In this document: positions 3,080 to 56,782 of the stretch, in pieces
How the letters are laid out: each line of letters opens with the position of its first letter
Numbering within the stretch: the first letter of the stretch is position 1
Assembly: GCF_937859865.1 (NCBI RefSeq)
Contig: NZ_CALMAT010000121.1
Location: 1-64,000 of the forward strand
Source: an uncultured Mucilaginibacter sp.
GTDB lineage: Bacteria > Bacteroidota > Bacteroidia > Sphingobacteriales > Sphingobacteriaceae
Length of the DNA: 64,000 nucleotides
Reading direction: 5' to 3'
Made by a program: the position numbers and the translations under genes
Notes under the pieces: model-generated
The model's input: only the letters and a program-made list of their open reading frames with translations
Told to the model about the DNA's origin: nothing
Databases searched by the model: none

Positions 3080-3123
3080 ATGCTTCTTTTACCACACTAA
3101 TTTTTGGGTGATAAAAGAAGCAT
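3080..3123. repeat. Paired 12-mer palindromic element (A/A, 44 bp) in a convergent gap
   Basis: ATGCTTCTTTTA...TAAAAGAAGCAT, exact arms. Confidence 0.9.
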
Positions 3124-11519: not shown

Positions 11520-11951
11520 ATGCCTGCCAAAATTAATTTTTTTGCAGAGGAAACCGATTTCAAATTAAAAAACAAAAAACTCCTCCGTACTTGGGTTGAG
11601 CAAACACTGCTTGCCGAAAAACGCATTTTAAAAGAAATCAATTTTATTTTTTGCAACGATGCTTATCTCCTGAAAATTAATCAGGAATATTTACAGCACG
11701 ATACTTATACCGACATCATCACTTTTGATAATTCTGAAACAACAGAAGAAATCGTAAGCGATATTTTTATATCGGTAGAAAGGGCGGCCGAAAACGCACT
11801 GTCCTTCCAAACCCCTTTTTTGCAGGAACTTCACCGCGTAATGATCCATGGCGTGCTGCATTTAGCAGGTTACAAAGATAAATCTGCCAAAGATGTTAAA
11901 ACCATGCGCAGCAAAGAAAACTTTTATCTAAGCAGTTTAGGGCCTGTTTAA
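11520..11951 (+). CDS. ybeY: rRNA maturation RNase YbeY
   Basis: DTYTDIITFD...LHRVMIHGVLHLAGYKDKS. Confidence 0.9.
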   Translation: MPAKINFFAEETDFKLKNKKLLRTWVEQTLLAEKRILKEINFIFCNDAYLLKINQEYLQHDTYTDIITFDNSETTEEIVSDIFISVERAAENALSFQTPFLQELHRVMIHGVLHLAGYKDKSAKDVKTMRSKENFYLSSLGPV

Positions 11952-11972
11952 ATTTTGTTAAACATATTTGAG

Positions 11973-12068
11973 ATGCTTCTTTTAGCACATAAAAATCATA
12001 GCTTTTTAGTGGTTTTTGTAACATTAAAATAGCCGAGCACACCAATTTTATAGGCATAAAAGAAGCAT
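11973..12068. repeat. Paired element (A/A, 96 bp)
   Basis: ATGCTTCTTTTAGCACATAAAAATCA...CACCAATTTTATAGGCATAAAAGAAGCAT. Confidence 0.9.
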
Positions 12069-12156
12069 CGCAAAATATTATGCTATAAATTTAAACAGCT
12101 TCTTGGTTACGGATAATTAGAAATGAACTACCTTTACGGCATTAAATTTTAAAGAA

Positions 12157-34176: not shown

Positions 34177-34222
34177 ACTGTTTTTAATTTTGATATTCCT
34201 TTAAATTTTACCGGTTATTGCG

Positions 34223-34312
34223 ATGCTTCTTTTATGCCATAAAAATTGGTGAAAATTCTTTGTTTTAAAGATGAAATGCAAAATACCAATTTTTTAGTGC
34301 TAAAAGAAGCAT
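34223..34312. repeat. Paired element (A/A, 90 bp), tandem unit 1
   Basis: ATGCTTCTTTTATGCCATAAAAATTGGTG...ACCAATTTTTTAGTGCTAAAAGAAGCAT. Confidence 0.95.
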
Positions 34313-34374
34313 CCTGTTTTATTGAATTTAAGCAGGATAAGTTTGCAAAATCTGCCTGTCCTTAACAATTATTG

Positions 34375-34462
34375 ATACTTCTTTTATGCCATAAAAATTG
34401 GTGAATTTTTTGTTTTAAAGATGAAATGCATAACACCAATTTTTGGGTGCTAAAAGAAGTAT
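34375..34462. repeat. Paired element (B/B, 88 bp), tandem unit 2
   Basis: ATACTTCTTTTATGCCATAAAAATTGGTG...CACCAATTTTTGGGTGCTAAAAGAAGTAT. Confidence 0.95.
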
Positions 34463-34556
34463 CCTGTTTTATTGAAGTTTGATCATTGCGCAAATCCATT
34501 TGCCGTCAATAATTATCCATACTTCTTTTACCGGCAAAAAATTGTTGTTATACAGC

Positions 34557-34583: not shown

Positions 34584-34617
34584 CTAACCAATTATAAACC
34601 TAAATTATGAGAAGGGC

Positions 34618-34728
34618 TGTAGGAGAAGGGGTCGAACCTTCACGAAGTGGTTATCACGTTGCCGTGGTTTCCCATGTTCTTCGCCACCGGGACAAGGAGG
34701 TGTGTCTGCCAAATTTCACCATCCTACA
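34618..34728 (-). tRNA. Class-II tRNA-like gene, apparent anticodon GUC, very long variable region; possibly atypical or pseudo-tRNA
   Basis: TGTAGGA/TCCTACA acceptor (7 bp), Leu-like D-arm GTGAAATTTGGCAGACAC, CCTCC-TTGTCCC-GGTGG anticodon arm (one T.T mismatch), variable stem CGAAG/CTTCG, T-arm GAAGG-TTCGACC-CCTTC; no encoded CCA. Confidence 0.7.
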
Positions 34729-37566: not shown

Positions 37567-37942
37567 GAATTTATATTGTAATTTTTAGATTTATCACTCA
37601 GCCGGTTTTGTCATTTTTGCCGGCCTAAAAACAGTATTTGCCCGGAGAAATAGGTACTGGAATTTGAAAAAGCTTTTGATACAAAAAAGCTTATTTTAAC
37701 GTTTTACTTTTCAACACGTCATCCTGCCAACAATTAATTGAAAATGCTTTTTCTTACTTTTGTCAAATCTACAAATTAATGCAATTGCAAAAACGGTTAA
37801 TGGTTATTTTGCACGAAATGAAGTGTTTGTAACAGCATTTTTAACGAAGCAAAAATACTTTTAAGTATGGCTTGGTTTTAATTATAATTTATTGCTGTTA
37901 CATTAGTGTTATAAATAAATATTGTTCTGCTAATAAAATTGA

Positions 37943-39373: not shown

Positions 39374-39448
39374 ATGCTTCTTTTAGCATATAAAAATCAG
39401 TGTGTATTTTATAAGAAAGCATAAAATTTTATGTGCTAAAAGAAGCAT
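39374..39448. repeat. Paired element (A/A, 75 bp)
   Basis: ATGCTTCTTTTAGCATATAAAAATCAGTG...TTTTATGTGCTAAAAGAAGCAT. Confidence 0.9.
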
Positions 39449-40379: not shown

Positions 40380-41171
40380 ATGAAAAAATACGGATTGATC
40401 GGTTTCCCGCTAACGCATTCTTTTTCCAAAAAATACTTCGAGGCGAAATTTGAAAAAGAGCAGATTGAGGACAGTTCTTACGAGCTTTTTGAGATTGACA
40501 ACCTGAGCGATTTCCCCGAATTTATCAAAGCGCACCCAGGCCTGTGCGGCTTAAATGTTACCATTCCGCATAAAATTGGCGTTGTTTATTATATGGATTG
40601 GATGGATGAGGAAGCTAAGCAGGTAGAAGCCATCAATTGTATCCGTGTGGTAGAAGAAAGCGCGCTTGCGACTGCATTTTCCGGGGAAGTAGGTTTTGTA
40701 GGCCAGGACTTTCGTTTGGAAGGCTACAATACCGATATTTATGGTTTCGAAAACTCCTTAAAACCCTTACTGGAACCGCATCATAAAAAAGCATTGGTTT
40801 TGGGCAACGGCGGCGCATCCCGGGCAGTAAAGTATGTGCTGAAAAAACTGCGCATCGCGTACCGAACCGTATCACGAAGGCCAAAAGCAAACCAAATTTC
40901 GTACGAACAGGTAACACCAAAGCTGATGGCCGAACATTCTTTGATCATCAACACTACGCCTTTGGGCACTTCGCCGGATACCGGTGCTTTTCCGAAAATC
41001 CCTTATGAAGCCATTACCAATCGGCATTTGTTGTACGATTTAATTTACAACCCTGAGAAAACGGTATTTTTGCAAAAAGGCGAAGCGCAGGGCGCAACAA
41101 TAAAAAACGGTTACGAAATGCTTCTTTTACAGGCAGAAAAATCGTGGGAAATTTGGAACAAAAAATCCTAA
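40380..41171 (+). CDS. aroE: Shikimate dehydrogenase
   Basis: YGLIGFPLTHSFSKKYFEAKF...GLNVTIPHK...LVLGNGGASRAVKYVL...NTTPLGTSPD. Confidence 0.95.
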   Translation: MKKYGLIGFPLTHSFSKKYFEAKFEKEQIEDSSYELFEIDNLSDFPEFIKAHPGLCGLNVTIPHKIGVVYYMDWMDEEAKQVEAINCIRVVEESALATAFSGEVGFVGQDFRLEGYNTDIYGFENSLKPLLEPHHKKALVLGNGGASRAVKYVLKKLRIAYRTVSRRPKANQISYEQVTPKLMAEHSLIINTTPLGTSPDTGAFPKIPYEAITNRHLLYDLIYNPEKTVFLQKGEAQGATIKNGYEMLLLQAEKSWEIWNKKS

Positions 41172-41908: not shown

Positions 41909-41954
41909 AGCAATGCTTCTTTTATCGGGTAAAAATTGGTGTGTTTGCTGTCAT

Positions 41955-42770: not shown

Positions 42771-42841
42771 TGCTTATTTATTTAATGATACTGTTTTTAT
42801 GACCAATTTTTTGTCGTTTTGTTACTGGTCTTTCAAAGAAA

Positions 42842-44973: not shown

Positions 44974-45027
44974 ATGCTTCTTTTACCGGTATAAATTTGA
45001 TACTTCTTTTACCAGTATAAAATTGGT
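44974..45027 (+). repeat. Two half-elements in direct tandem (A then B)
   Basis: ATGCTTCTTTTACCGGTATAAATTTG-ATACTTCTTTTACCAGTATAAAATTGGTG. Confidence 0.9.
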
Positions 45028-54949: not shown

Positions 54950-54979
54950 ATACTGTTTTTACCGGCATAAAAACAGTAT
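54950..54979. repeat. Compact palindrome (C/C, 30 bp), likely also a terminator
   Basis: ATACTGTTTTTA-CCGGCA-TAAAAACAGTAT followed by CGGCTTTTTTT in a convergent gap. Confidence 0.95.
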
Positions 54980-56686: not shown

Positions 56687-56782
56687 ATGCTTCTTTTATC
56701 GCATAAAAATTGGTATATGCCGGTTTTTTGATTTGTTTAGGCTGCAGTACACACACCAATTTTTATAGGGTAAAAGAAGCAT
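56687..56782. repeat. Paired element (A/A, 96 bp) in the porX/HD divergent gap
   Basis: ATGCTTCTTTTATCGCATAAAAATTGGT...CACCAATTTTTATAGGGTAAAAGAAGCAT. Confidence 0.95.

Follow-up and report, generated by a model that had tools for sequence, protein, structure and literature searches.

The window, by which we mean the entire 64,000-nt stretch of Mucilaginibacter DNA analysed here, contains two long dyads and a third half-copy within 34222–34530. Unit 1 (34222–34313) runs GATGCTTCTTTTA...TAAAAGAAGCATC and carries two convergent 12-bp cores, at 34223–34234 on the + strand and at 34301–34312 on the − strand, separated by a 66-nt gap. The aligned positions are empty in both relatives used for comparison. 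Unit 2 (34374–34463) runs GATACTTCTTTTA...TAAAAGAAGTATC, with cores at 34375–34386 (+) and 34451–34462 (−), and is a duplicate of unit 1 in which both arms read ATA. The two units are 91% identical over 76 nt and 97% identical over 29 nt, bearing out an earlier note that had described them as near-duplicate palindromic units; the units, half-copy and coordinates given there are correct within one base. The half-copy (34518–34530) follows both units and forms part of a solo copy on the + strand (34519–34547), which consists of the core ATACTTCTTTTA, the pentamer CCGGC and AAAAAATTGTTG. M. arboris retains this copy at the same place (L086:6522), where it reads ATGCTTCTTTTA.

Both units are predicted to fold as hairpins, with z-scores of −6.1 (unit 1) and −7.1 (unit 2). 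With up to three mismatches allowed, GATGCTTCTTTTA has 113 matches, compared with 34 ± 5.7 in shuffled sequence. An Rfam scan of the window returned zero families at the gathering threshold, and weak matches to mir-16 and to a Phe leader were set aside as chance matches to hairpins. The earlier tally of ten close inverted pairs in the window, grouped by the form of each arm, was reproduced exactly: five A/A pairs (starting at 3080, 11973, 34223, 39374 and 56687), one B/B pair (34375), two C/C pairs (52614 and 54950) and two pairs of mixed form (31024 and 46278).

A tRNA-like gene of ~112 nt, TGTAGGATGGTGAAATTTGGCAGACACACC...GGTTCGACCCCTTCTCCTACA, lies beside the units at 34590–34728 on the − strand and has acceptor-stem-like ends and a T-arm. 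The gene is conserved in other Mucilaginibacter sequences (L086:6564–6759, L122, L129, L120, L090 and L119), often with an adjoining second copy. Neither ARAGORN nor Rfam makes a call at 34590–34728; the gene looks like an atypical RNA of the tRNA-Leu type.

A non-palindromic motif found genome-wide

Each arm of the dyads corresponds to a single copy of a non-palindromic motif that occurs throughout the genome and usually stands alone, a feature overlooked in the earlier note. The motif has the form ATRC(TC|GT)TTTTA + N7 + A/T tract + GGTGT, and its 12-bp core is written out as ATRCTTCTTTTA (TC form) or ATRCTGTTTTTA (GT form). In a logo of 307 TC-form copies, which were chosen on the core, position 14 is C in 79%, and an A/T tract at about 19–25 precedes a weak GGTGT at 26–30. 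A faint A/T bias is visible near −10 to −4, and there is almost no signal past about −10/+30. Copies of the GT form carry the same flanks as those of the TC form.

The 3.98-Mb draft genome from which the window derives contains 3,480 exact cores of both forms (~0.9 per kb), most of them outside close pairs. ATRCTTCTTTTA has 2,624 exact matches genome-wide, against 5 for a reversed-pattern control, and ATRCTGTTTTTA has 856; the GATRCTTCTTTTA core is present in 941 copies. This over-representation is extreme, control patterns being counted at most 5 times, and the motif is the most over-represented 10-mer family in the source genome as well as in the two relatives. The copies of ATRCTTCTTTTA are divided between the strands as 1,293/1,331 in the source genome, and counts on long contigs (144/130 and 128/123) likewise lack orientation bias. 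Further statistics come from a ~465-kb sample of the source genome and about 0.6 Mb from each of the two congeners. Close convergent pairs number about 110 in the resulting 1.66-Mb three-species sample, against more than 900 solo copies. Perfect copies outnumber those with a single mismatch in all three species (309/106, 302/169 and 250/175), indicating a strong consensus. The spacing is at best slightly more regular than random: on each of three contigs the coefficient of variation falls below that of the null (p = 0.06, 0.08 and 0.10).

The distribution of the motif is narrow. Among 151 genomes searched at the family level, it rises above background in just three species of one genus: ATRCTTCTTTTA is counted 2,624 times in the source genome, 2,321 times in M. 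arboris HMF7410 and 1,644 times in a Sphingobacteriaceae MAG from Lobaria lichen, and at most 17 times in each of the other 148. The GT form is counted 856, 714 and 786 times in the same order, and both core forms are thus common to the three species. Two other repeats were seen in the genus. The M. gossypii/kameinonensis group (L117, L123, L130 and L131) has up to 7 copies of GATGTGCAAAT within 21 kb, clustered and partly tandem; this repeat was considered as a sister dialect and rejected as a set of local clustered repeats. Several other Mucilaginibacter species (L081, L096, L099, L112, L130 and L131) carry the REP-like GTCATTGCGAG at 3–5 copies per 20 kb.

Copies are located both between and within genes. 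ORFs contain 88 of the 309 TC-form cores (28%) in the ~465-kb source-genome sample and 46% of GT-form cores, and with heuristic ORF calling the density is 4.1 per kb in intergenic DNA versus 0.215 per kb in ORFs. None of the 88 coding TC-form cores lies in the antisense frame that would read TAA. All 12 bases of coding cores are identical in 54% of orthologues, compared with 7–10% for control 12-mers from the same genes, and either core form is kept in 178 of 238 coding orthologous comparisons. Because each comparison was made both ways, these figures are partly non-independent. The A/T tract (positions 20–25) of coding copies is kept almost as well as the core despite its place in coding sequence, at 86–96% identity versus 57–88% for the flanks.

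Coding copies that differ between congeners do so by substitution in 51 cases, against 5 indels and 1 gap. An example is the core in a predicted gene at 41118–41129 (+), which reads ATGCTTCTTTTA here and ATGCTTGTTTTA in both relatives, a difference of one substitution with no indel. The solo motif at 44974–44998 (+) has kept its core and A/T tract in three species while its flanks have diverged, and the one at 41913–41942 (+) is likewise present in all three. The TC and GT forms also interconvert. Both bases are switched in place in 43 of 318 orthologous comparisons in the three-genome samples, as seen in the window at 37626 and at 42788–42799, where a solo GT-form core (+) occupies the place of a TC-form core in both relatives. 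Single-base intermediates between the two forms are rare.

One long stretch of DNA is free of the motif. In contig 1 of the lichen MAG, zero copies are found over 74 kb (about 48–122 kb, L160–L164), and the other 10-kb bins of the same 420-kb stretch hold 2–12 copies. The motif-free DNA encodes a TrwC relaxase, a TraG-type coupling protein, ArdC and a tyrosine integrase, and is by its predicted gene content an integrated conjugative element. Absence from acquired elements is thus seen in a single case. In Neisseriaceae, conjugative elements have been located through a matching depletion of DUS (PMC7371117).

Agreement between arms and the classes of dyad

The arms of a dyad look complementary because they are the same word in opposite orientations, rather than because the dyad arose as a palindrome. 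The earlier note had proposed that the arms of units 1 and 2 changed together in a compensatory manner. Unit 2 does carry a paired G-to-A change, yet a three-species sample of 87 close inverted TC-form pairs (convergent, with a gap of up to 100 nt) contains no other AA case; the rest are 63 GG and 23 mixed at position 3. Independence predicts 21.4 mixed and 1.8 AA pairs (Fisher p = 0.685), so the A and B forms combine as often as unlinked arms would, the outcome that the note itself had set against its idea. Position 3 is unlike in 79 of 318 orthologous comparisons, and partnerless copies change at this base too: the half-copy at 34519 has ATA here and ATG in M. arboris. Given independent arms and switching solo copies, the A/B change amounts to drift at an unconstrained base.

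The TC and GT forms behave differently in close convergent pairs, which comprise 87 TC/TC, 12 GT/GT and 13 mixed cases (p = 1.4e-7). This like-with-like pairing is limited to the close convergent arrangement, with no excess at other orientations or distances; the same-strand bin at 500–3000 bp gives p = 0.04 in the opposite direction. Regional patches of dialect were rejected as the origin of the GT/GT pairs on the same grounds, neighbours at other distances and orientations having no like-with-like excess. Selection on the hairpin offers a fitting account, because a TC/GT mix breaks two adjacent stem pairs whereas a G/A mix weakens one and still gives a G·U pair on one strand. In compact dyads, position 13 also agrees between arms (p < 0.001). 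The suggestion that the hairpin is under selection is therefore supported at positions 6–7, and at position 13 of compact dyads, but not at position 3, and the data support a pairing constraint on part of the hairpins. The other explanation offered earlier, templated copying of one arm to the other, is rejected, since spacer positions 13–18 in long pairs agree less than in shuffled pairs.

Compact dyads (gap <40) lie a median of 9 nt from a gene end, which is the 3′ end in 28 of 37 cases, and favour tail-to-tail spaces (0.57 per kb versus 0.06–0.15 elsewhere). The 44-bp dyad at 3080–3123, in which two cores have one A/T tract in common, belongs to this terminator-like class, and the short palindrome at 54950–54979 is composed of two GT-form cores with a 6-nt loop. 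Inverted DUS pairs at the gene ends of Neisseria act as terminators (PMC2397512), and by analogy compact dyads probably do so here.

The long dyads have gaps of 50–72 nt, with a peak at 70, and are the only copies for which a dispersed unit, terminal inverted repeats and a homologous interior are found. In the source genome, 14 of 41 have an interior sequence in common beyond the arms and sit in a ~145–165-bp unit with outer repeats CTGTTTAAATTT/AAATTTAAACAG. The dyad at 11973–12068 is flanked by these outer repeats and is missing at the orthologous place in M. arboris; the one at 56687–56782 belongs to the same MITE family and is also absent in M. arboris. A further long dyad (39374–39448) is lineage-specific, being absent in both relatives. 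Most long dyads that can be tested in the relatives, including the tested cases with 70–72-nt gaps, are absent there, though the empty sites align only coarsely. We propose that a MITE which took up two motif copies either carries the ~94-bp pairs or gave rise to them. Units 1 and 2 have long-dyad geometry and imperfect outer repeats, and are therefore read as decayed and duplicated copies of this ~145–165-bp MITE; the assignment is tentative because neither clusters with the 14 dyads that have the common interior.

The MITE family itself, with its CTGTTTAAATTT outer repeats and two inward motif copies, was seen in the window at 11950–12100, at L040:18560–18720, in L044 and L046, and elsewhere. 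It is expanded in the source genome and M. arboris and rare in the lichen MAG, with 232, 160 and 33 MITE-like arms, respectively. No full-length IS that could be its autonomous partner is present in the sampled DNA.

Interpretation as a putative uptake sequence

The motif looks and evolves like a DNA uptake sequence of the USS/DUS kind, and we think it probable that it is one, in a Bacteroidota clade. This reading is based on its abundance, clade limit, anatomy, strand neutrality, strong consensus, turnover by substitution in genes, conservation and absence from the conjugative element, and genomic traits of this sort are criteria given for USS/DUS (PMC1626085, PMC2397512). A surface receptor of the natural-transformation apparatus would prefer DNA with this word, and imported kin DNA would recombine into the chromosome, so that copies, genic and intergenic, would spread and be maintained by biased uptake (molecular drive). 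Recently acquired elements would therefore lack copies, and close convergent pairs would be secondary to the uptake word. Counted against this reading are the position of TC-form cores mostly outside ORFs, the location of part of the source-genome copies in MITEs and the at best slight regularity of spacing.

Sites for an intracellular protein, involved in nucleoid or chromosome organisation or marking a recombination hotspot, or a HIP1-like motif, would be unlinked to uptake and seem to us unlikely. Chromosome-organising or other binding sites could give many of the same signatures, and the conserved core with its phased A/T tract is compatible with any sequence-specific DNA-binding protein. 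However, polar motifs of the Chi/KOPS type are unlike one that occurs at ~0.9 per kb with even use of the two strands. Perfect copies also outnumber single-mismatch ones here, whereas regulatory binding sites have been described as looser in consensus (PMC1626085), and the lack of copies in the conjugative element fits biased uptake. It is quite unlikely that the system is a mobile palindromic element of the MITE/REP type, in which a 90–170-bp unit transposes and solo copies are single-arm remnants. The common interior and outer repeats of 14 long dyads, the absence of most testable long dyads in relatives and the count of MITE-like arms in three genomes are all expected of such an element, but it covers a minority of copies: the lichen MAG has 2,430 cores and 33 MITE-like arms. 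Coding copies change by substitution and not by insertion, homology in the logo ends at the ~40-bp motif, and solo copies are kept while flanks diverge. A mobile-element origin of the solo copies is thus disfavoured.

Compensatory selection on RNA hairpins that end transcripts or stabilise mRNA, in line with the hairpin selection suggested in the earlier note, is very improbable as an account of the motif as a whole. It draws on the like-with-like TC/GT pairing confined to close convergent pairs, on the strong fold z-scores and on the preference of compact dyads for gene 3′ ends and tail-to-tail spaces. Such a role covers close pairs only; most cores are solo, many are genic on either strand, and the G/A position is independent between arms. 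The conserved solo copies in coding sequence refute RNA hairpins as the explanation of the whole system.

We lean towards a lineage of Bacteroidota having evolved sequence-specific uptake independently of Pasteurellaceae and Neisseriaceae and without a type IV pilus motor, by way of some outer-membrane receptor for the word formed by the 12-bp core and A/T tract, with a two-copy MITE that may hitch-hike on uptake. ComEC, DprA, DUF1343/NamZ and HHH_3 proteins are present but are not distinctive of the genus, since ComEC and DprA are near-universal and HHH_3 and DUF1343/NamZ are general in the family. The three genomes yielded no PilB/PilT-type ATPase (T2SSE above cut-off), which makes a ComP-like pilin driven by the usual pilus motor an unlikely receptor; known proteobacterial hosts have that motor, which is no part of how the motif is defined. 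DUF5689, the domain carried by a Riemerella uptake protein, was not found here either.

To our knowledge, uptake sequences have been established experimentally in two proteobacterial families only, both with type IV pili. In the literature searched, which was mostly open-access and included no preprints, we found no report of natural competence in Mucilaginibacter or of an uptake motif of this kind in Bacteroidetes, Sphingobacteria or Mucilaginibacter. Our reading, if true, would mean that uptake words arose a third time, independently, in Bacteroidota. It would then suggest a receptor that needs no pilus, and would provide a further case for testing whether drive, repair or mate choice lies behind the evolution of such words. 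It would also offer a route to transform a group that is possibly hard to manipulate, and foreign islands could be spotted by the missing word.

One close parallel is the USS of Haemophilus influenzae and other Pasteurellaceae, in which a short core likewise comes with an A/T-rich 3′ segment, the consensus is strong and free of strand bias, copies lie within and between genes and also as close inverted pairs, and those in genes originate by point change (PMC1626085). The putative uptake motif described here is an unrelated 12-bp sequence with R at position 3 and the TC/GT alternation; its host is a member of Bacteroidota with no type IV pilus ATPase detected. The DUS dialects of Neisseria also number thousands of copies of a clade-specific word with variants, form inverted pairs at gene ends and are depleted from conjugative elements (PMC2397512, PMC3630211, PMC7371117). 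The DUS is unrelated in sequence, however, has no flanking A/T motif and is recognised by the pilin ComP, whereas the clade studied here has no detectable pilus motor.

Natural transformation in Riemerella offers a comparison in the same phylum, with ComEC, DprA, HHH and DUF1343 families in common. Riemerella columbina prefers its own DNA; it has no established uptake motif, the only candidates listed being over-represented short k-mers (PMC7965970). Competent Riemerella needs ComEC, DprA and ComF together with proteins unrelated to the well-known machinery, and the DUF5689 protein, which was not found in our genomes, belongs to the apparatus of R. anatipestifer (PMC8459023). The long ~94-bp dyads resemble MITEs and REP elements in sitting within a dispersed unit bounded by outer terminal inverted repeats. 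The motif itself outnumbers the MITE by far, however; it is non-palindromic, stands mostly alone and is maintained through substitution.
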